This document shows, in pieces, positions 48,187 through 56,443 of a DNA stretch of 64,000 nt. The notes beneath the pieces are model-generated. The model ran no database searches and was not told the origin of the DNA. It worked only from the letters and a program-made list of their open reading frames with translations. Location: assembly GCF_000829825.1 (NCBI RefSeq), contig NZ_JXSL01000027.1:372001-436000 (forward strand), read 5' to 3'. The first letter of the stretch is position 1; every line of letters starts with the position of its first letter. The position numbers and the translations under genes were made by a program. This DNA is from Paramagnetospirillum magnetotacticum MS-1 (lineage in GTDB: Bacteria; Pseudomonadota; Alphaproteobacteria; Rhodospirillales; Magnetospirillaceae).

Positions 48187-49176
48187 ATGGCCGACGATGG
48201 GAATAACGTAAAAGCTGAAAGCGTGCCAGCGACGGCGGAGCCGGTTTCGCCCGCTTCGCCTAAGGCGAAGAAGTCTTCGCCCGCGGCCAAGGCCGTTACG
48301 CCCGCCGGTCAGGCCCGCCACGATCTGGCGGAAATGCGCCACGACCCGGAAGCGGTACGACATGCCTTCGAGACGGGCGAATATCCGTATAAGAGCCGCA
48401 TGGGCCGCGCCGAATACGAGTCCAAGAAGGCCGCGCTGCAAGCCGAATTGCTCAAGGTCCAGCTTTGGGCCCGCGACACGGGCCAGAAATTCGTGCTGCT
48501 GTTCGAAGGTCGCGACGCGGCTGGCAAGGGCGGCACCATCAAGCGCTTCATGGAGCATCTCAATCCCCGCGCCGCCCGCGTGGTCGCCCTGGAAAAGCCC
48601 AGCGAGATCGAGCGCGGCCAATGGTTCTTCCAGCGCTATATCCAGCACCTGCCCACGGCGGGGGAAATGGTCTTCTTCGACCGTTCCTGGTACAACCGGG
48701 CCGGTGTCGAGCGGGTGATGGGCTTTTGCACCCCCGCCGAATACCTTGAATTCATGCGCCAGACCCCGGAAGTGGAGCGCATGCTGGTCCGTTCCGGGAT
48801 CAAGCTCTACAAATACTGGTTCTCGGTCACCCAGGACGAGCAGTTGCGCCGTTTCAAGTCGCGGGAGCGCGATCCTCTGAAGCAGTGGAAGCTGTCGCCC
48901 ATCGACAAGGCGTCGCTGGGCAAGTGGGGGGAATATACCGAGGCCAAGGAGGCCATGTTCTTCTACACCGACACCGCCGATGCGCCTTGGACCATCGTCA
49001 AGTCGGACGACAAGAAGCGGGCCCGGCTGAACTGCATGCTCCACTTCCTCAACTCGCTGGACTATCCCGGCAAGAACGAGAGCCTGGTGCATGTCCCCGA
49101 TCCGCTGATCGTCGGCAAGGGCGCCCATGTGGTCCACAAGAGCGAGCGCATCCTGGGCGCCAGTCTAAGCCCGTAA
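48187..49176 (+). CDS. ppk2: Polyphosphate kinase 2
   Basis: This 329-residue PPK2-family enzyme uses polyphosphate to phosphorylate nucleoside di- or monophosphates. It has Walker A GRDAAGKGGTIKRF, Walker B GEMVFFDRSWYNRAG, the lid lysine-rich SVTQDEQLRRFKSRERDPLKQWK and KSDDKKRARLN. The N-terminal 35 residues are low-complexity Ala/Lys. AGGGAG precedes the ATG. A CULT-domain gene starts three bases after the stop, so the two are almost certainly co-transcribed. The GDP/ADP preference cannot be read. Confidence 0.94.
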   Translation: MADDGNNVKAESVPATAEPVSPASPKAKKSSPAAKAVTPAGQARHDLAEMRHDPEAVRHAFETGEYPYKSRMGRAEYESKKAALQAELLKVQLWARDTGQKFVLLFEGRDAAGKGGTIKRFMEHLNPRAARVVALEKPSEIERGQWFFQRYIQHLPTAGEMVFFDRSWYNRAGVERVMGFCTPAEYLEFMRQTPEVERMLVRSGIKLYKYWFSVTQDEQLRRFKSRERDPLKQWKLSPIDKASLGKWGEYTEAKEAMFFYTDTADAPWTIVKSDDKKRARLNCMLHFLNSLDYPGKNESLVHVPDPLIVGKGAHVVHKSERILGASLSP

Positions 49177-49179
49177 CCC

Positions 49180-49554
49180 ATGCCCCGTGACGCCCCGGCG
49201 GAGCAGAATGATACCCTGTCCTGGGACAAGGACATCGCGTATTTCTGCGCCCGCTGTGGCGCCCCGGTGACGCGGGGGCGTTGGGAAATGGCCATGAATG
49301 GCGGGTTCGAGCACGTCTTCTTCAATCCCGCAGGCATCGTCTTTCGGGTTCTGTGCTTCAAAGAGGCACCGGGGGCCTTGGCCCTGGGTGCGGCCAGCGG
49401 CCAGTTTACCTGGTTCAAAGGCTATCTTTGGCGGTTAGCCGCCTGCCGCGCCTGCGACCTGCATCTGGGCTGGCGCTTTGAAGGATCGGACGCCCCGCGC
49501 ATCTTCTTCGGCCTGATCAAGGACAGTCTTACGACAGTGGCCACACGGCGTTGA
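49180..49554 (+). CDS. CULT-domain (cereblon-like) protein, MsCI4 homologue
   Basis: The protein has 124 residues. A zinc-binding pair CARC (23, 26) and CRAC (89, 92) holds the fold. The tri-tryptophan cage is complete: W78 in SGQFTWFKGY, W84 in YLWRL and W98 in HLGWRFEG. FEHVFFNPAG and FFGLIKD are conserved. This matches the cereblon thalidomide-binding domain and its single-domain bacterial form studied from Magnetospirillum. In human cereblon the cage binds C-terminal cyclic imides on proteins; the bacterial substrate is unknown. The start follows PPK2 by three bases, so it is coupled to it. Confidence 0.92.
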   Translation: MPRDAPAEQNDTLSWDKDIAYFCARCGAPVTRGRWEMAMNGGFEHVFFNPAGIVFRVLCFKEAPGALALGAASGQFTWFKGYLWRLAACRACDLHLGWRFEGSDAPRIFFGLIKDSLTTVATRR

Positions 49555-49578
49555 TCGAAATCGATCAACGCGCCCTCA

Positions 49579-49645
49579 GGCGCCGGGCGGGCGCGAGCGC
49601 CCTTGGCTTCCGCGCCATAAGACGCGCGGCCCTTTGGGCCTAGCC
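49579..49645. repeat. Multi-hairpin intergenic element, copy 1
   Basis: The layout is hairpin 1 (GGCGC-GA-GCGCC), conserved linker CCTTGGCTTCC, hairpin 2 (GCGCC-ATAA-GACGC, one mismatch) and hairpin 3 (GGCCC-TTT-GGGCC) followed by TAGCC. It lies at the convergent junction of the CULT and rsuA genes. Right after it, over the rsuA stop, is a further perfect palindrome (CCCAATCTCGAT / ATCGAGATTGGG, 49644-49668). Confidence 0.75.
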
Positions 49646-49654
49646 CAATCTCGA

Positions 49655-50365
49655 TCATCGAGATTGGGGGGCGATCACCAAGGTAATCTCGTCCGGCGTA
49701 AGCATCCGCCACTGCCCCTCGGGCAGATCGCCCAGGTCCAGCCCGCCGATGGCGGCGCGGTGCAGGCGCTCCACATGGTTACCGACGGCCGCGAACATGC
49801 GCTTGACCTGATGGTAGCGCCCTTCGGTGATGGTGATGCGGGCCGTCTGGGGGCCGGTGACCATCAACTCGGCCGGAGCCAATGGGGTATTCTCCGAGCG
49901 CAGCATCAGGGTGCCGGAGGCGAAGACCGCCCCCTCCTCCCCGGTCAGCGGCCGGGCCAGGGTCACCTCGTAGGTCTTGGGCACATGGCGCTTGGGCGAA
50001 GTGACGCGATGGGCCAGCGGACCGTCATCGGTCAGCAGCAGCAGGCCGGAACTGTCGCGGTCCAGGCGTCCCACCGGCGCCACGATGGGATTGCGGTGCA
50101 TGAAACGCGGAGGCAGCAGTTCATAGACGACGCGGCCCGGATCCGAGGTGGAACAGGTATAGCCCTCGGGCTTGTTGAGCATCAGCACCAGACCGGGCGG
50201 CGGATCGAGGGGCTCGCCATCGACCCGGATATCCTCATGGGCCACCTTGGACGTGTCGTCCAATACGGAACCATCGGCGCGAGTGACCAGACCATCCTTG
50301 ATCATGGCCTTGACGTCGCGCTGGCTGCCATAGCCCAGATTGGCGATGAGGCGGATCAGTCGCAT
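49655..50365 (-). CDS. rsuA: 16S rRNA pseudouridine synthase RsuA
   Basis: This 236-residue synthase has an N-terminal S4 domain (about 1-60, LIANLGYGSQRDVKAMI...GLV) and a catalytic domain. That domain has LVLMLNKPEGYTCSTSD and VGRLDRDSSGLLLLTDDG (catalytic Asp), and EGRYHQVKRMFAAVGNHV at the C-terminus. It makes pseudouridine at U516 of 16S rRNA in E. coli; the same target is inferred. The ATG at 50365 has AAGGGA upstream. It is flanked on both sides by copies of the multi-hairpin element. Confidence 0.9.
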   Translation of the reverse strand: MRLIRLIANLGYGSQRDVKAMIKDGLVTRADGSVLDDTSKVAHEDIRVDGEPLDPPPGLVLMLNKPEGYTCSTSDPGRVVYELLPPRFMHRNPIVAPVGRLDRDSSGLLLLTDDGPLAHRVTSPKRHVPKTYEVTLARPLTGEEGAVFASGTLMLRSENTPLAPAELMVTGPQTARITITEGRYHQVKRMFAAVGNHVERLHRAAIGGLDLGDLPEGQWRMLTPDEITLVIAPQSR

Positions 50366-50382
50366 ATCTTTATGTCCCTTAT

Positions 50383-50449
50383 GCGCCGGGCGGGATGCGT
50401 ACCGCATCCCTTGGCTTCCGCGCCATAAGGCGCGCCGGGCCTTGCCCGC
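50383..50449. repeat. Multi-hairpin intergenic element, copy 2
   Basis: Hairpin 1 is GGGATGCG-TAC-CGCATCCC, then linker TTGGCTTCC, hairpin 2 GCGCC-ATAA-GGCGC (perfect) and hairpin 3 GGGC-CTT-GCCC. The stems differ in sequence from copies 1 and 3 while pairing and linker are kept. It lies between rsuA and the RsmC-like gene, after the latter on the minus strand. Confidence 0.75.
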
Positions 50450-50479
50450 AACTCCAAGCCTGCGGTTTGTCGGCCATTA

Positions 50480-51505
50480 TCATTTGTCATGGCGATTGCT
50501 GGCCAAATAGACCTTGAAGCCGTCGGCCTCGCGCAGCAGGGTCACCTCACGGAAGCGGCGGCGCAGCTCCGCTTCGTAAGGCAGGCTGCGATTGGCCACC
50601 AGCACGAATTTGCCGCGCCGCCGGATGGCCTTCCAGGCGGAATTGATGAATCCCTGACCGATAGCCGGGTCGGCCTTGCGCCCCTCGTGAAAAGGCGGAT
50701 TGCTGACGATCCAGTCATAGGGATCGCATTTGGGCAGCCCCGCTCCCACGTCCAGCCAGTGAAAGGCGGCACGCGGATCGCCGCCTAGATTGGTGCGCGC
50801 ATCCTCCAGGGCCAGGGATTCCGCCTCGAACAGATCAACGCCGGTCACGGAGGGAAAACGGGCCAGAATCTCGGCTGAAAGATAGCCCCAGCCAGCGCCC
50901 AGATCGGCCACCCTCCCCGCCACGCCCTCGGGCAGGCATTGCATCAAGAGGCGCGACCCCTTGTCCACATGCTCCGAGCTGAAACAGCCCGCGCGGGCCA
51001 CCATTGCGCAGCCCTCCACCGGCCTTGGGCTGGCGGCCTCCAGCCATTGGGCGCATTCGGCGGGCCGAGGCCCCGCCCCGCGCTTCATCCAGAAAGTCCT
51101 GGCCTGATGTTTGGACAGCGACCCGGCCAGGCCAAAGACCTTTTCCGCCTCGCGTTCGTGGCTGGCAGCGCCCAGGGCATTGGCGCCGCAGCACACCAGA
51201 ATGCCGCCCGGCTCCAGCAGGTCCCAGGCCCGCGCCAGATTGGCCCGGTTTTCGGCCTTGTGCTTGGTCAGCAGCACCAGACCGGCGCCAAAGCGGCCTT
51301 CAAGGCGTTCCACTGTTTCGAATCCGGCCTGGATCAGACGATCATAGGCGGGCTTGAAGCCCTGTTCGCAGATCAGGCGCGCATTCCATTCGTCCCGCAG
51401 AGCATCGTGGGGCTCGGCGCGCATCAGAAAAGCCCGTTCGGGCAGCGGCACAAGGTCGCGTTCGAAGGGCAGAAGAAGGGCGTCGATGATCTTGGAATCG
51501 TTCAT
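50480..51505 (-). CDS. rsmC: RsmC-like 16S rRNA guanine methyltransferase
   Basis: This 341-residue duplicated class I methyltransferase (E. coli RsmC 343) has a non-catalytic N-terminal half. The C-terminal MTS domain has the SAM motif VADLGAGWGYLSAEIL and the catalytic NPPF motif in DWIVSNPPFHEGRK. RsmC methylates G1207 of 16S rRNA; rlmG-type activity is the alternative. The ATG at 51505 starts MNDSKIIDALLLPFERDLV; the longer frame crosses another gene's leader. It belongs to the local cluster of RNA-modification genes. Confidence 0.85.
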   Translation of the reverse strand: MNDSKIIDALLLPFERDLVPLPERAFLMRAEPHDALRDEWNARLICEQGFKPAYDRLIQAGFETVERLEGRFGAGLVLLTKHKAENRANLARAWDLLEPGGILVCCGANALGAASHEREAEKVFGLAGSLSKHQARTFWMKRGAGPRPAECAQWLEAASPRPVEGCAMVARAGCFSSEHVDKGSRLLMQCLPEGVAGRVADLGAGWGYLSAEILARFPSVTGVDLFEAESLALEDARTNLGGDPRAAFHWLDVGAGLPKCDPYDWIVSNPPFHEGRKADPAIGQGFINSAWKAIRRRGKFVLVANRSLPYEAELRRRFREVTLLREADGFKVYLASNRHDK

Positions 51506-51591
51506 GACGGGCGGTTTAGCATGCCCGGCATGTGGCCGTCGAGGCATGCCAAGCGTTGACTCGCGCCCGATGCGGGGCCAAGGTGCCGCCC

Positions 51592-51915
51592 ATGGCCCGC
51601 CAAGACACAATCGACGACGAAGACAAGGTCCGGCTGCTGCGCGCCTTGGCCTTCCAGATCCACCGCAAACGCCCGGCCGAAGAGGCTTTGGGCGAATTGC
51701 TGGAGCATGAATCCAAGGGCGGGCGCCGCCGCGCCTACCGGGCCGGAGTGGACGCCCTGGCCGCCGACGGCTTCACCGCCGCCATGGATGCGCTTGGCCT
51801 GTTCAATGACGATGCCCTGGTGCTGCTGGGGGTGCTGGCCGATTCCGGCGACCACCGCCTGCTGTCCAGCGCCTTGGGCAAAATCGCCGATCTCATGGAA
51901 AACAAAAGCCCCTGA
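51592..51915 (+). CDS. Hypothetical all-helical protein, 107 aa
   Basis: A soluble, entirely helical protein with pattern VRLLRALAFQIHRKRPAEEALGELLEHE and repeated LLGVLADSGDHRLLSSAL. It faintly recalls the cytoplasmic helical part of T2SF/PilC proteins but is too short and lacks membrane helices. The ATG at 51592 is used rather than 51532. It is divergent from the rsmC-like gene and its stop lies inside a strong terminator stem. Confidence 0.6.
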   Translation: MARQDTIDDEDKVRLLRALAFQIHRKRPAEEALGELLEHESKGGRRRAYRAGVDALAADGFTAAMDALGLFNDDALVLLGVLADSGDHRLLSSALGKIADLMENKSP

Positions 51916-51938
51916 TCCGCCAGGACCAGGGGCTTTAT
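51904..51938. terminator. Bidirectional intrinsic terminator
   Basis: A ten-base perfect stem, AAAGCCCCTG / CAGGGGCTTT, is followed by TTTAT on the plus strand and by TTTTGTTTT on the minus strand. It lies at the convergent junction of the 107-residue gene and the ferredoxin-like gene and overlaps the former's stop codon. Confidence 0.8.
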
Positions 51939-51955
51939 CGGTGTAACCGGCTCGC

Positions 51956-52291
51956 TCAGCCCTTGGCAGGCGTGACGATCAGGCGTTCGACCGGCGTGTC
52001 ATTGGCGAAATGCGAGGTCACGATCTCGTCGATATCGGCCGTGGTTTCGGTCTTGTACCAGATGCCCTGGGGATAGACGACCATCAGCGGCCCGGCCTTG
52101 CAAAAGCCCAGGCAGCTGGACGAGGCGACGCTGACGCCCTTGTCCCACAGATTCAGCTCACTCACCTTCATGGCCAGCTGATTGAACAGATTCTGACCGC
52201 CGCCCTTGCTGGTGCAACAGCCGCGGGGATGGCCGTCGGGGCGGCGCTGAGTGCAGACGAAGGCGTGGTACTTATTGGGGTAATGGGACAC
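51956..52291 (-). CDS. Thioredoxin-like [2Fe-2S] ferredoxin
   Basis: This 111-residue protein is of the thioredoxin-like ferredoxin type. Cluster Cys are in FVCTQRRPDGHPRGCC and SSSCLGFCKAGP, and the VVYPQGIWYKTET segment is typical. It probably carries electrons for an unknown cytosolic redox enzyme. A GTG at 52291 with GGGAGG upstream starts the expected SHYPNKYHAFVCTQ and is preferred to ATG 52312. It is followed by the bidirectional terminator. Confidence 0.87.
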   Translation of the reverse strand: MSHYPNKYHAFVCTQRRPDGHPRGCCTSKGGGQNLFNQLAMKVSELNLWDKGVSVASSSCLGFCKAGPLMVVYPQGIWYKTETTADIDEIVTSHFANDTPVERLIVTPAKG

Positions 52292-52360
52292 GGACGACCT
52301 CCCTCTCATCAAAATCCGGTAAGGAAATACCGCTTTCTCCGGTTCATGACCAGAGTCTAA

Positions 52361-52768
52361 TCAGCCCTTCACCTTGAGGAGCTTCAGTTCCTCACCGGTG
52401 AAGAGGTCATAGCGGGTCAGGCAGGAATCCACCGACTTGCCGGTCAGTTCGCGCCACTTGTCCAGCGCTTCCTTGCGCGAATAAGGGCCATGCACTTCCA
52501 ACTGGCGTCCCTCGGTGACGTTCTGGAAGGTGGTATCAGCGTATTCGCCGCCCATCACATACCACTGATCCGCGGCCGAATCCTCGGTGCTGCGGATAAA
52601 GTAGCGGATCATGGCATTGTCCACGGACTTGCCGGTCAACGCACGCCAGCAGATATGCGCCTCGTGCTCCTCGAAGGGGCCGAACCGCTCTTCGGTGTGG
52701 CCCGGCGCGATGACGGTAAAGGAAGTATCGGCATATTCGCCGCCGACAACATAATAGGTCTTGGCCAT
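52361..52768 (-). CDS. Tandemly duplicated DUF4170-type protein
   Basis: This 135-residue protein consists of two homologous halves. The first has TYYVVGGEYADTSFTVI, FGPFEEHEAHICWRALTGKSVDNAMIRY; the second has QWYVMGGEYADTTFQNV, HGPYSRKEALDKWRELTGKSVDSCLTRY. The unit resembles the short domain of unknown function found singly in Rhodospirillales; the family name is from memory. It is soluble, with no catalytic motif visible. The gene sits 69 bases upstream of the ferredoxin-like gene on the same strand, so the two could share a transcript. Confidence 0.75.
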   Translation of the reverse strand: MAKTYYVVGGEYADTSFTVIAPGHTEERFGPFEEHEAHICWRALTGKSVDNAMIRYFIRSTEDSAADQWYVMGGEYADTTFQNVTEGRQLEVHGPYSRKEALDKWRELTGKSVDSCLTRYDLFTGEELKLLKVKG

Positions 52769-52969
52769 GGGTGTCTCTCTTCCCACTCGAAGGGGTGGCT
52801 TCGGGCAAGCTTATACCCCATCCCCGGCCCGGAAGGAATGTCCTTCGTAACATGGTGCCCCGGCAGATTCTGCCGCCCTATTGCATGAAGAATTGGCGGA
52901 AAGCCTAGAGTTTCCGTTTGGCACGATGGCTGCATAGAGAGCGGGGAACTCTCTCCTCGGAGAACGAAC

Positions 52970-53236
52970 ATGGTTTCTCTCAGCGTCGCCTCGTCCAATC
53001 TTCTCCTGAACAAGAAGGAAAACGAGGCCACTCATTCCATCGAAAAGTCAGGCTCGGCCTCGGCCTTTTCCAATTATGGCTATGGCCCCCTCGACCTGCC
53101 CGACGGCAACAAGGACATCACCGCCGAGGGCACCGGGACCAAGCCGGTTTCGGGCACGTCGTCCATTGCCGCGGTTTCCAGCGGCGCCAGCGCCCAATGG
53201 CTGGCCCAACTGGCCGCGTCGATGAATCCCAGGTAA
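52970..53236 (+). CDS. Hypothetical low-complexity protein, 88 aa
   Basis: The protein is Ser-, Ala- and Gly-rich and largely unstructured, with a hydrophobic-polar start ([14 protein letters not shown]) and a helical tail ([14 protein letters not shown]). GGAG precedes the ATG at good spacing, supporting translation. No family is recognised. It stands alone between a divergent DUF4170-type gene and trmFO, 46 bases before trmFO. Confidence 0.55.
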
Positions 53237-53282
53237 AGCACTTCTGGACAAGAGGCGTCCAAGCCTCTATCTCCCTTGGGCC

Positions 53283-54626
53283 ATGACCCGCACCGTCCAT
53301 GTGATCGGCGGCGGGCTTGCCGGGTCGGAAGCGGCCTGGCAGCTCGCCCAGGCCGATATCCCCACCGTCCTCCACGAAATGCGCCCGGTGCGCACCACGC
53401 CCGCTCATCAGACCGATGGCCTGGCCGAACTGGTGTGCTCCAACTCCTTGCGCTCGGACGATGCGGATTACAACGCCGTCGGCCTGCTGCATGAAGAGAT
53501 GCGCCGCGCCGGTTCTCTCATCCTCGCCCAGGCCGATGCCCACAAGGTCCCGGCCGGTGGCGCCCTGGCGGTGGACCGCGACGGCTTTTCCCAAGGTGTT
53601 CAGGCGGCCCTGTCCTCCCATCCGCGCATCACCATCGTGCGCGAAGAAGTGGCCGGTCTTCCCCCTGAGGATTGGGAACAGGTGGTCATCGCCACCGGCC
53701 CGCTGACCTCGCCCGCCATGGCCGAGGGGCTGCGTGAGCTGACGGGCGAGGCCTCCCTGGCCTTCTTCGACGCCATCGCCCCCATCGTCACCAAGGACAG
53801 CATCGACTTCACCAAGGCTTGGTTCCAGTCGCGCTATGACAAGGGCACGGGCTCGGACTACATCAACTGCCCCTTGGACAAGGACCAGTACTACGCCTTC
53901 ATCGAGGCGCTGATTACCGGCGAGAAGGTGGCGTTCCATGAATGGGAAAAGGACACCCCCTATTTCGAGGGTTGCCTGCCCATCGAGGTGATGGCCGAGC
54001 GCGGTCGTGACACCCTGGCCTACGGCCCCATGAAGCCGGTGGGCCTGACCAATCCCAATGGCCCCAAGCCCTTTGCCGTGGTGCAGTTGCGCCAGGATAA
54101 CGCGCTGGGCACGCTCTACAATCTGGTGGGCTTTCAGACCAAGCTGCGCCATGGCGAGCAGTCGCGCATTTTCCGCGCCATTCCCGGCTTGGAAAACGCC
54201 GAGTTCGCCCGTCTGGGCGGGCTGCACCGCAACACCTTCGTCAACGGCCCCCGCGTCCTCGACCGCAGCTTGCGGCTCAAGGCCCAGCCCCGGCTGCGCT
54301 TGGCGGGCCAGATCACCGGCTGTGAAGGCTATGTGGAAAGCTCGGCCATCGGCCTGCTGGCCGGTCTGTTCGCCGCCGCCGAGGCTCTGGGCCGCGAGAT
54401 GCTGCGCCCGCCCGCAACCACGGCCTTGGGCGCCCTGCTCAACCATGTCACCGGCGATGCCGAGGCCGAGACCTATCAGCCCATGAACATCAATTTCGGC
54501 CTCTTCCCCCCGCCGCCTGAGCGCGACGAAAAGGGCCGCCGCGTCAAGGGCCGCGATCGCAAGAAGCTCTATGCCGAACGGGCGCGCAACGCGCTCACAC
54601 CCTGGATCAATTCGCTTCGGGAATAG
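53283..54626 (+). CDS. trmFO: Folate-dependent tRNA m5U54 methyltransferase TrmFO
   Basis: This 447-residue FAD enzyme uses methylene-tetrahydrofolate to methylate U54 of tRNA. It has the FAD motif [27 protein letters not shown], the catalytic-Cys segment [33 protein letters not shown] and the GRLCGQ-like [22 protein letters not shown]. The length matches the family. It is typical of alphaproteobacteria and Gram-positives, which use this rather than TrmA. It is convergent with gloA across a hairpin-rich spacer. Confidence 0.95.
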
Positions 54627-54632
54627 TTCATT

Positions 54633-54753
54633 GCGGGGCTCCCGCCCCGATCCCCCGGCTGGAGGCGATGCCTCCAGACCTCCCTTTGATTCATAAATGA
54701 AATGGGGTTTGGGGCCTTGCCCCGAACGGGTGCGGGCCGGTGGCCCGCTCGCG
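54633..54753. repeat. Four-hairpin intergenic sequence between trmFO and gloA
   Basis: Successive hairpins are GGGGC-TCCC-GCCCC (approximate), CTGGAGGC-GAT-GCCTCCAG (perfect), GGGGC-CTT-GCCCC and GGGCC-GGT-GGCCC. The AT-rich part TTTGATTCATAAATGAAATG lies in the middle. It fills the convergent junction. It resembles in design, but not in sequence, the multi-hairpin element found elsewhere in this window. Confidence 0.6.
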
Positions 54754-54759
54754 CAGCGA

Positions 54760-55152
54760 TCATTTCGCCTGGATCAACTCGATCTTATAGCCGTCAGGGT
54801 CTTCCACGAAGGCGATGATGGTCGAGCCGTGCTTCATGGGGCCTGGGGCGCGGGTGATCTTGGCCCCTGCCGCCGCCAGATCGGCGCAGGCCTTGTAGAT
54901 GTCGGGAACGCCAAGGGCCAGATGGCCGAAGCCGCCGCCCAGATCGTAGGATTCGGTGTCCCAGTTGAAGGTCAGTTCCACCACCGTGCTGGACGCCTCC
55001 TCGCCATAGCCGACGAAGGCCAGGGTGAAGCGTCCTTCCGGGTAATCGGTGCGGCGCAGCAGCTTCATACCCAGCAAGCGGGTGTAAAAGTCGATGGAGC
55101 GGTCCAGATTGCCCACCCGGATCATGGTGTGGAGAAAGCGCCAGTCAGCCAT
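54760..55152 (-). CDS. gloA: Lactoylglutathione lyase (glyoxalase I)
   Basis: This 130-residue enzyme turns methylglyoxal-glutathione hemithioacetal into lactoylglutathione in the cytosol. The four metal ligands are visible: His in FLHTMIRV, Glu in VVELTFNWD, His in GFGHLALGV and Glu in YKIELIQ. MKHGSTIIAFVEDPDGYKIE is typical. The ATG at 55152 gives MADWRFLHT, the canonical start; the longer frame overlaps the repeat element. It lies convergent to trmFO. Confidence 0.95.
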   Translation of the reverse strand: MADWRFLHTMIRVGNLDRSIDFYTRLLGMKLLRRTDYPEGRFTLAFVGYGEEASSTVVELTFNWDTESYDLGGGFGHLALGVPDIYKACADLAAAGAKITRAPGPMKHGSTIIAFVEDPDGYKIELIQAK

Positions 55153-55183
55153 AGTTCTGGTCCTTATTTGCTTGGCGCCTTCA

Positions 55184-55254
55184 CGCGCCGGGCGAGCCAC
55201 CTCCGTGGCCCTTGGCTTCCGCAGCATAAGCTGCGCGGCCCCTTGGGCCTAGCC
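55184..55254. repeat. Multi-hairpin intergenic element, copy 3
   Basis: Hairpin 1 is GCCAC-CTCC-GTGGC, then linker CCTTGGCTTCC, hairpin 2 GCAGC-ATAA-GCTGC (perfect, both sides changed relative to copy 2) and hairpin 3 GGCCC-CTT-GGGCC followed by TAGCC. It lies between gloA and lpxB, downstream of lpxB on the minus strand. A further stem (GACGAG / CTCGTC) sits next to the lpxB stop. Confidence 0.75.
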
Positions 55255-55276
55255 AAGCCTCGACGAGTTATCCTCG

Positions 55277-56443
55277 TCAAGACTTGGTCTTGCGTTGCCT
55301 GATAAAGTCGATCACCGCATCGGCGGCCCGCTTTCCCGGACTCTCGCCGCCCAGGCCTAGCTTTTCCAAGGCCCGGCGGGCGCCTGCCGCCTGCAGCGCG
55401 CGGGCCGCTTCGTCGGTCAACAGATGTTCCACCGCCGCCGCCAGTTTATCCGGCTGACAATCATCTTGCAGCAGTTCAGGCATCACCACCTCGTCAACCA
55501 GGATGTTGACGAGGGTGACGAATTTGAGGCTGAGCCCCAGGAAACGGGTGGCGATGAAGGCCGAGACAGGCGACACCTTGTAGGTGACCACGGCGGGCAG
55601 CCGCGCCATGGCCAGTTCCAGGGTGACGGTGCCCGAAGCCGCCAAGGCGGCGTCACAGGCGGCAAAGGCGTCGTATTTCTCCGCCCCGCGCACCACCAGT
55701 GTAGGCAGCGGCCAGGATTTTACCGCCTGCGTGACCTCATCGGCCACAGTCTCGACGGTGGGCACCACCACCGCCAGATCGGGAAAGCGTTTGGCCAGCA
55801 GCGCCATGGTCTGCCCGAACGGCTCTAGAAGCTTGGCCGTCTCGGAATGCCGGCTGCCGGGCAGGACGCAGAGGAGTTTGCGGTCGGGGTGAATGGCATG
55901 CCGGGCGCGGAAGGCTGCGCCATCGCCTCTGGCCGCCGCCCCCTCGATCACCGGATGCCCCACATGCAGGGTCCGAAGCCCCTCTTTCTCGAACCAAGCC
56001 GGTTCGTTGGGCAACAAGGTCAGCAGCAGATCCAGTACCTTCGCCAGGGTCTTGGTCCGTCCCGACTTCCAGGCCCAGACCATGGGCGCCACGTAATGGA
56101 TGCGTGGAACCGCCGAACCTCGTTTCTTCAGGCCCGCATGAATGCGTCCGTTGAAGCCCCAGGAATCGATGGAAATCAACGCATCCGGGCGCTTCGTTTC
56201 GATATCGGAAATGGTCTGCTTGACCCGGCGCAGGATCTTGGGGATACGGGGCAGCACCTCCACCAGCCCCATCACCGACAATTCGGTCATGGGAACCAGG
56301 GAGGTCAGCCCCTCGGCCTGCATGCCTTCGCCGCCGATTCCGGCAAAAGTGACGCCGTCTCCCAGGCGCTCCTTCAAAGCCGCCATCAACCGTCCACCCA
56401 GCAGATCCCCCGAGGGTTCTCCGGCGATAAGATAGATCAGCAT
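55277..56443 (-). CDS. lpxB: Lipid-A-disaccharide synthase LpxB
   Basis: This 388-residue glycosyltransferase joins UDP-diacylglucosamine and lipid X in the inner-membrane leaflet. It has AGEPSGDLLGGRLM at the N-terminus, IHYVAPMVWAWKSGRTK and CVLPGSRHSE. The lpxI stop overlaps its start region by seven bases. It is last in the lpxD-fabZ-lpxA-lpxI-lpxB order. Confidence 0.96.
   Translation of the reverse strand: MLIYLIAGEPSGDLLGGRLMAALKERLGDGVTFAGIGGEGMQAEGLTSLVPMTELSVMGLVEVLPRIPKILRRVKQTISDIETKRPDALISIDSWGFNGRIHAGLKKRGSAVPRIHYVAPMVWAWKSGRTKTLAKVLDLLLTLLPNEPAWFEKEGLRTLHVGHPVIEGAAARGDGAAFRARHAIHPDRKLLCVLPGSRHSETAKLLEPFGQTMALLAKRFPDLAVVVPTVETVADEVTQAVKSWPLPTLVVRGAEKYDAFAACDAALAASGTVTLELAMARLPAVVTYKVSPVSAFIATRFLGLSLKFVTLVNILVDEVVMPELLQDDCQPDKLAAAVEHLLTDEAARALQAAGARRALEKLGLGGESPGKRAADAVIDFIRQRKTKS

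Follow-up and report, generated by a model that had tools for sequence, protein, structure and literature searches.

A mobile five-hairpin repeat in Paramagnetospirillum magnetotacticum MS-1: probable non-autonomous IS630-type elements with a three-base TNA target duplication

What is the small structured repeat that stands three times within a few kilobases of the Paramagnetospirillum magnetotacticum MS-1 genome, and how did it come to lie behind genes? We studied it in a 64,000-nucleotide stretch of contig NZ_JXSL01000027.1 (assembly GCF_000829825.1, positions 372,001 to 436,000, forward strand), hereafter the window, where an earlier note had proposed either an RNA 3' element or a mobile family resembling REP (repetitive extragenic palindromic) sequences. 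Genome comparison points to the copies most probably being non-autonomous DNA transposons of the IS630 type (miniature inverted-repeat transposable elements, MITEs) that duplicate three bases, TNA, instead of TA. This reading rests on terminal inverted ends, on the TNA duplicated around recent copies, on empty sites in relatives and on an insertion sequence (IS) that has the same ends and occurs in a congener. An odd local repeat would thereby become a transposon system that can be traced through its ends, its target, its empty sites and a candidate transposase.

The repeat is mobile

Two of the three window copies are matched by empty sites in relatives in which both flanks could be placed. 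The interval around copy 1 measures 141 nucleotides (nt) here and 6 nt in 5/5 such relatives. That around copy 3 measures 128 nt here against -9 to 17 nt in 14/14, where the flank ends of the distant relatives were extrapolated, so that only the absence of the 128 nt is safe for them. Copy 2 is common to one relative (G013), has left a remnant in another (G008) and is absent from ten others. Of seven other MS-1 sites that were checked, six had both flanks placed in one or more relatives, and all six are empty in at least one. The joins at the empty sites are clean in 5/5 relatives for L086 and in a single relative for each of L080 and L030; at L080, MS-1 reads CTGA, the element and then TGAGTGAC, compared with TTGAGTGAC in G010. 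The empty sites at L080 and L086 accord with a target duplication. The element is mobile, and the idea of a REP-like mobile family was right in substance, as judged by many copies, covarying hairpins, tandem arrays and empty sites.

Ends, target duplication and a candidate transposase

To read the ends of the element we used 33 copies from six genomes with recent bursts (G007, G005, G002, G070, G024 and G102). Recent copies have terminal inverted ends, TACCA...TGGTA, which are carried by hairpins 0 and D (TACCANNTCCCGNTNA), and a complete unit is a five-hairpin chain, 0-A-B-C-D, of about 180-190 bp. Its inner hairpins A, B and C are accompanied by conserved unpaired stretches, namely the TTAT loop, the linker AAGCCAAG and the tail GCCCGGCG..TGAGGG. 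Identical trinucleotides, all of them TNA, flank 16/19 recent copies in which both ends were found (shuffled mean 4.9; reached in 0/10000 shuffles), a count that covers copies with both ends and thus omits 14/33 recent and 57/64 MS-1 copies. The duplication in recent copies is TNA and not TA, and sites such as CTGAG contain no TA. The ends of MS-1 copies are mostly eroded, with the left end detected in 16/64 and the right end in 26/64; in three copies added by eye (L033, L039 and L086) the ends and the TNA look right. Elsewhere in MS-1, locus L242 (C27, near 108.7 kb) is a stand-alone, core-less palindrome in which the two transposon ends directly adjoin each other.

Searching for the pattern of the TACCA...TGGTA ends, we found in the congener G007 a 1.16-kb IS that bears these ends and is present twice (L235:575-1738 and L236:651-1815), each time between TAA repeats. 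It encodes the domains HTH_29, HTH_32 and HTH_33 (2.8e-17 for HTH_33) and, in a different frame, DDE_3 (6.8e-14), a make-up that we take to be that of an IS630-type transposase. The MITE left end agrees with the two IS left ends at 23 and 24 of its initial 29 nt, and the MITE right end with the two IS right ends at 19 and 19 of its initial 24 nt. Among the 17 genomes of the genus, close copies of this transposase occur in G007 (two) and G009 (one), with weaker matches in G016 and G005. In L235 the candidate transposase is split between two frames, with an A-run close to the frame change (near 1145-1155), as in programmed frameshifting.

The TNA duplication also brings IS5/IS1031-type elements to mind. 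A mobiliser of this type was considered and rejected: its domain (PF13340) is present in 13/17 genus genomes and was not found in MS-1, and a search for the TACCA end (at most 3 mismatches) in 30 PF13340 loci and four Y1 loci gave no pair of good ends, with one near-match at L227, at a distance of about 1 kb from a fragment of a transposase gene.

We propose that an IS630-type transposase acting in trans would move the unit into TNA, often within YTNAR, duplicating the three bases. Every TNA spells a stop codon on one of the two strands (TAA or TGA directly, TTA or TCA when read on the opposite strand), so that an insertion exactly at a stop codon would restore the stop and leave the upstream gene whole. 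Old copies, those of the window included, would then shed their clean ends and hairpin D while retaining pairing, and some would come to provide new stop codons out of hairpin 0 or D. Copies would gather behind genes because of such stop-restoring insertion together with the removal of insertions inside genes; the TNA duplication would thus offer a simple reason for the harmless build-up of small elements at gene ends.

Placement at gene ends

Neighbouring genes were called with a simple codon-usage gene caller. The 64 MS-1 copies have neighbours that both run with the element in 31 cases, both run against it in 14, converge in 19 and diverge in none, and co-directional neighbours outnumber opposed ones (31 vs 14, p 0.016). 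A stop codon lies within 60 nt of the core in 53/64. Among recent copies the duplicated trinucleotide is a called gene stop in 8/19, against 16/402 YTNAR sites of the window (p 3e-7); this set of 19 differs from that of the pair count in that L384 is included and L151 excluded. The orientation of the recent insertions is balanced, with nine TAA/TGA and seven TTA/TCA among the 16 matching pairs.

Several observations weigh against the IS630-type reading. At the empty sites, L018, L041 and L042 are empty in relatives with joins that are not clean, only one flank of L039 could be placed, 4/5 relatives hold other sequence at L080 (43-235 nt, two with core-like pieces), and G016 has its own copy at L041. 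Among the recent copies, L374, L377 and L151 lack matching trinucleotides, and L161 and L162 have common flanks and are possibly one event. The same script applied to MS-1 found both ends in 7/64 copies and a matching TNA in two, which is not above chance, and all three window copies lack a clean TNA pair. TACCA ends were not seen in copies from Erythrobacteraceae, in which the core is well kept. Close transposase copies are confined to G007 and G009, of which G009 shows one end, and in the part of PMC2229807 consulted IS630 elements are described with a TA target, not TNA. A search for this transposase found no copy of it in MS-1, whose own copies of the element are therefore probably stranded. 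Finally, one of the eight stop-codon cases (L384) is without a matching pair, and the excess of stops over non-coding YTNAR sites is not significant (8/19 vs 16/67, p 0.06).

A strict choice of stop codons by the transposase was not borne out by that last comparison, and a true preference for stops is a possibility. Because the excess over non-coding sites is not significant, the removal of intragenic insertions explains most of the placement behind genes. The 31-to-14 orientation bias may reflect selection on transcripts, or chance, and an effect of the element on mRNA 3' ends is possible. In the window, the rsuA-type gene and lpxB appear to have acquired new stop codons through insertion, which also seems to have parted lpxB from its immediate downstream neighbour in relatives.

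Copy number and distribution

A covariance model (R1) built from 11 copies was searched against the MS-1 genome and its relatives. It matched 86 places in MS-1 at an expectation value (E) of at most 1, and 64 at E<=1e-5. This search had been set as the test of the family, and neither scarcity of copies nor loss of pairing was found. Of 14 exact CTTGGCTTCCGC sites in the genome, 12 lie inside the element. All 17 genus genomes contain R1 matches, with a best E of 6.9e-8 or better in each, and matches at E<=0.1 occur in 53/60 relatives, where the weakest may be chance. In a class-wide draw at least 29/385 alphaproteobacterial genomes, MS-1 included, match at E<=1e-6, a lower bound given that 12 candidates were scored per genome.

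Among the matches listed (80 loci, with named genomes), most belong to Magnetospirillum, Paramagnetospirillum, Phaeospirillum and other Rhodospirillales. Erythrobacteraceae and a few Acetobacterales such as Acidiphilium are also represented, as are two records titled Stygiobacter. The core of the Erythrobacteraceae copies reaches E values as low as about 1e-19, and is accompanied there by another 5' hairpin and a common right flank, GCAAACAAA. A second 5' type (CGACGAG..GAGGAGT-TGCGGGC) is present in MS-1 itself. The Stygiobacter-titled records (L284 and L318) carry the element though Stygiobacter is not an alphaproteobacterium, and are probably mixed assembly bins.

The element also forms tandem arrays, at L163 (G016), L164, L165 and L170 (G001), with periods of 82 bp repeated 3.3 times at L163 (core only) and 104 bp repeated 3.4 times at L164. 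An insert of about 44 nt with two hairpins (GCCGGCTTCGCCGGCAA..GCACGCCTGCGCGTGC) lies within the element in the loop of B, in the loop of C or just after C. It gave seven matches at six distinct places among the fetched loci, with carriers in MS-1 (L091, L094 and L102) and in a Magnetospirillum metagenome-assembled genome (L237, L240 and L312), and may be a smaller mobile unit. Additional GGGAACGCGGAGCGGAC-bearing sequence stands between hairpins B and C at two MS-1 loci (L100 and L103), and L101, L105 and L106 have related GAGCGAAGCGGAGG pieces.

Hairpin structure and alternative explanations

Pairing is strongly kept throughout the family. In the first alignment, of 11 MS-1 copies (omitting L002 and L003, which hold no element, and the partial L014), 93.4% of cells are paired and both-side changes number 30 vs 9.4 in shuffles (0/500); hairpins A and B pair fully, hairpin C in 92% and a proposed tail hairpin, excluded from the covariance model, in 77%. 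Alignments of 65 distinct MS-1 rows (96.1% paired; 181 both-side changes vs 51 shuffled, 0/500) and of 100 distinct rows from 80 further loci (96.6%; 381 vs 122, 0/500) were fitted to the model and are thus biased towards its pairing, and the shuffles take no account of relatedness among copies. Hairpin 0 lies outside the model; a net stem of at least 8 stands directly 5' of the core in 32/64 MS-1 copies, compared with 0.4% of 2000 random places.

Selection on hairpin structure is plausible because both-side changes exceed the shuffles in all alignments. The earlier note had taken covariation to show such selection; the pairing is indeed kept, and selection is one reading of it, as templated correction of palindromes could suffice. 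Correction during DNA replication, by template switching between arms, is an appreciable possibility, though not the one we would choose. Single two-arm steps would easily explain the hairpin 0 stems, which are long and near-perfect and in many cases share no sequence between copies. Taken alone it leaves unexplained why hairpins A and B conserve sequence besides pairing, and why the unpaired TTAT and AAGCCAA are also conserved. The strong conservation of pairing is likewise what would be expected of an RNA 3'-end element, whose transcript hairpins would protect mRNA or separate neighbouring genes, and the absence of divergent neighbours (0/64, against 19 convergent) and the co-directional excess point the same way. 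We consider this unlikely. The recent insertions are balanced in orientation, so the bias, if real, is weak and late; no terminator-like site lies at the three copies (a search for intrinsic terminators, a GC-rich stem followed by a T run, gave five sites in 49300-55600, where 4.9 are expected by chance, and 0 in the copies); and an RNA element alone fails on the empty sites.

Alternatively, the A-B-C core might have existed earlier and independently, as a structured element of mobile or RNA-based nature, and have been captured by IS630 ends only in some lineages, in which case the IS ends would be its vehicle and not its origin. The Erythrobacteraceae core, with its other 5' hairpin, its own right flank and no TACCA ends, speaks for such a capture, as do the core-only array of G016 and the second 5' type in MS-1, and we give it serious weight while judging it improbable on balance. 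Full units with IS630-type ends are present in at least four separate families (G007, G070, G024 and G102), and loss of the ends is therefore as easy as capture. A REP family moved by a RAYT (REP-associated tyrosine transposase, Y1/TnpA-REP) would share the short palindromic intergenic repeats in arrays, and the earlier note had suggested looking for such a gene. We hold this to be very improbable, and RAYT was rejected as mobiliser: the domain Y1_Tnp (PF01797) was not found in MS-1 (0 matches) and occurs in 4/17 genus genomes and 6/25 element-bearing genomes, and target duplication and IS630-like ends argue against it. IS630-type MITEs with a TNA duplication remain our preferred reading.

The copies in the window

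The three look-alike copies, with their common linker, ATAA loop and stem swaps, were confirmed as described: CTTGGCTTCCGCNNCATAAG has three exact matches in the window and none further at up to 3 mismatches (0.05 expected). All three are oriented on the minus strand. Their neighbours had been named as rsuA, an RsmC-like gene and lpxB, which fits the domain matches of the encoded proteins (PseudoU_synth_2, MTS and LpxB, respectively); copy 3 stands between lpxB and a glyoxalase-like gene. Read on the minus strand, the element consists of hairpin 0, TAGG, hairpin A (GGCCC-AAA-GGGCC) and hairpin B (CGCGCC-TTAT-GGCGCG), followed by the linker AAGCCAAG, the variable hairpin C and a tail, GCCCGGCG..TGAGGGC, to which copy 1 adds hairpin D (Table 1). 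Stem B of copy 1 includes one G-U type pair (GCGTC/GGCGC). Further palindromes had been noted at two of the stops; they are present, and belong to the element itself as hairpin 0 of copies 1 and 3.

Table 1. Window positions of the three copies, their parts and two insertion intervals
Feature	Position	Strand	Remarks
Copy 1 insertion interval	49535..49675	-	
Copy 1	49548-49668	-	
Copy 1 hairpin 0	49644..49668	-	CCCAATCTCGATGATCGAGATTGGG; contains called stop 49655-49657 of rsuA-type gene
Copy 1 hairpin A	49628..49640	-	GGCCCAAAGGGCC
Copy 1 hairpin B	49611..49626	-	minus-strand loop TTAT (plus: ATAA)
Copy 1 hairpin C	49589..49602	-	GGGCGCTCGCGCCC
Copy 1 3' tail	49572..49588	-	GCCCGGCGCCTGAGGGC
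Copy 1 hairpin D	49548..49571	-	GCGTTGATCGATTTCGATCAACGC; contains called stop 49552-49554 of plus-strand gene 49180-49554
Copy 2	about 50375-50467	-	
Copy 2 hairpin 0	50456..50467	-	short; second 5' type (...GGCTTGGAGT-TGCGGGC)
Copy 2 hairpin A	50436..50448	-	CGGGCAAGGCCCG; both arms unlike copies 1 and 3
Copy 2 hairpin B	50419..50434	-	
Copy 2 hairpin C	50392..50410	-	GGGATGCGGTACGCATCCC
Copy 2 3' tail	50375..50391	-	GCCCGGCGCATAAGGGA
Copy 3 insertion interval	55166..55293	-	
Copy 3	55177-55287	-	
Copy 3 hairpin 0	55253..55287	-	CCAAGTCTTGACGAGGATAACTCGTCGAGGCTTGG; contains called lpxB stop 55277-55279
Copy 3 hairpin A	55237..55249	-	
Copy 3 hairpin B	55220..55235	-	CGCAGC-TTAT-GCTGCG
Copy 3 hairpin C	55194..55211	-	
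Copy 3 3' tail	55177..55193	-	GCCCGGCGCGTGAAGGC; no D hairpin seen

A second repeat family is represented in the window at 54627-54747, immediately behind the gene at 53283-54626 on the plus strand, and has dozens of matches in the genus at 77-91% identity (query positions 1754-1868).

Relation to known repeat families

REP sequences and bacterial interspersed mosaic elements (BIMEs) are intergenic palindromic units in tandem arrays that are moved by RAYT. The present element is likewise intergenic, palindromic and arrayed, with stems that change on both sides, but most element-bearing genomes yielded no Y1 transposase and a target duplication is present. With the IS630 family, in which IS870 makes a stop codon at CTAG, it shares the Pfam make-up of its candidate partner (HTH_29/32/33 and DDE_3), and differs in duplicating three bases, TNA, instead of TA. 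RUP of pneumococcus and Correia/NEMIS of Neisseria are bacterial MITEs that, as outlined in the part of PMC2229807 consulted, are similarly about 100-200 bp long, structured and numerous, with inverted ends. According to the same text, RUP ends match an IS630 element, as do those studied here, whereas RUP and IS630-Spn1 target TA (PMC2229807). As far as they are described there, RUP and Correia/NEMIS form one long end-to-end stem, compared with up to five separate hairpins here.

CIR repeats of Caulobacter and Brucella, reportedly treated by Chen and Shapiro in 2003, invite another comparison. In the consulted part of PMC2229807 they are described as intergenic repeats, about 110 bp long, in which a linker connects two arms, with TA at the termini and GANTC in the loop of one arm, and their mobility is called unresolved (PMC2229807). 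Compared by description only, the two share intergenic position, alphaproteobacterial hosts, linker-joined arms and TA-type termini, and possibly GANTC, and differ in that CIR has two arms in about 110 bp and the present element five hairpins. Counted anywhere in the 42 nt on the 5' side of the core, GANTC is present in 25/33 recent copies, which are not independent, and in 13/64 MS-1 copies (about 6 expected). Given these common parts, the question of CIR mobility becomes testable. It is conceivable, though we think it doubtful, that CIR and the present element belong to one class-wide TNA-duplicating system for which stop codons are lossless landing sites and whose body becomes, with time, a shared 3' end of unrelated genes. 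In that case methylation by CcrM at the GANTC of the first hairpin could couple transposition and the cell cycle.

Rfam gave no match at E<=1 in window positions 49000-56000 or in eight element loci, and in the literature searched, including the available parts of PMC1273637 and PMC2229807, no paper was recognised as describing the present hairpin family. The family is best filed as a known kind of element, the IS630-type MITE, with the TNA duplication as its departure from the described TA.

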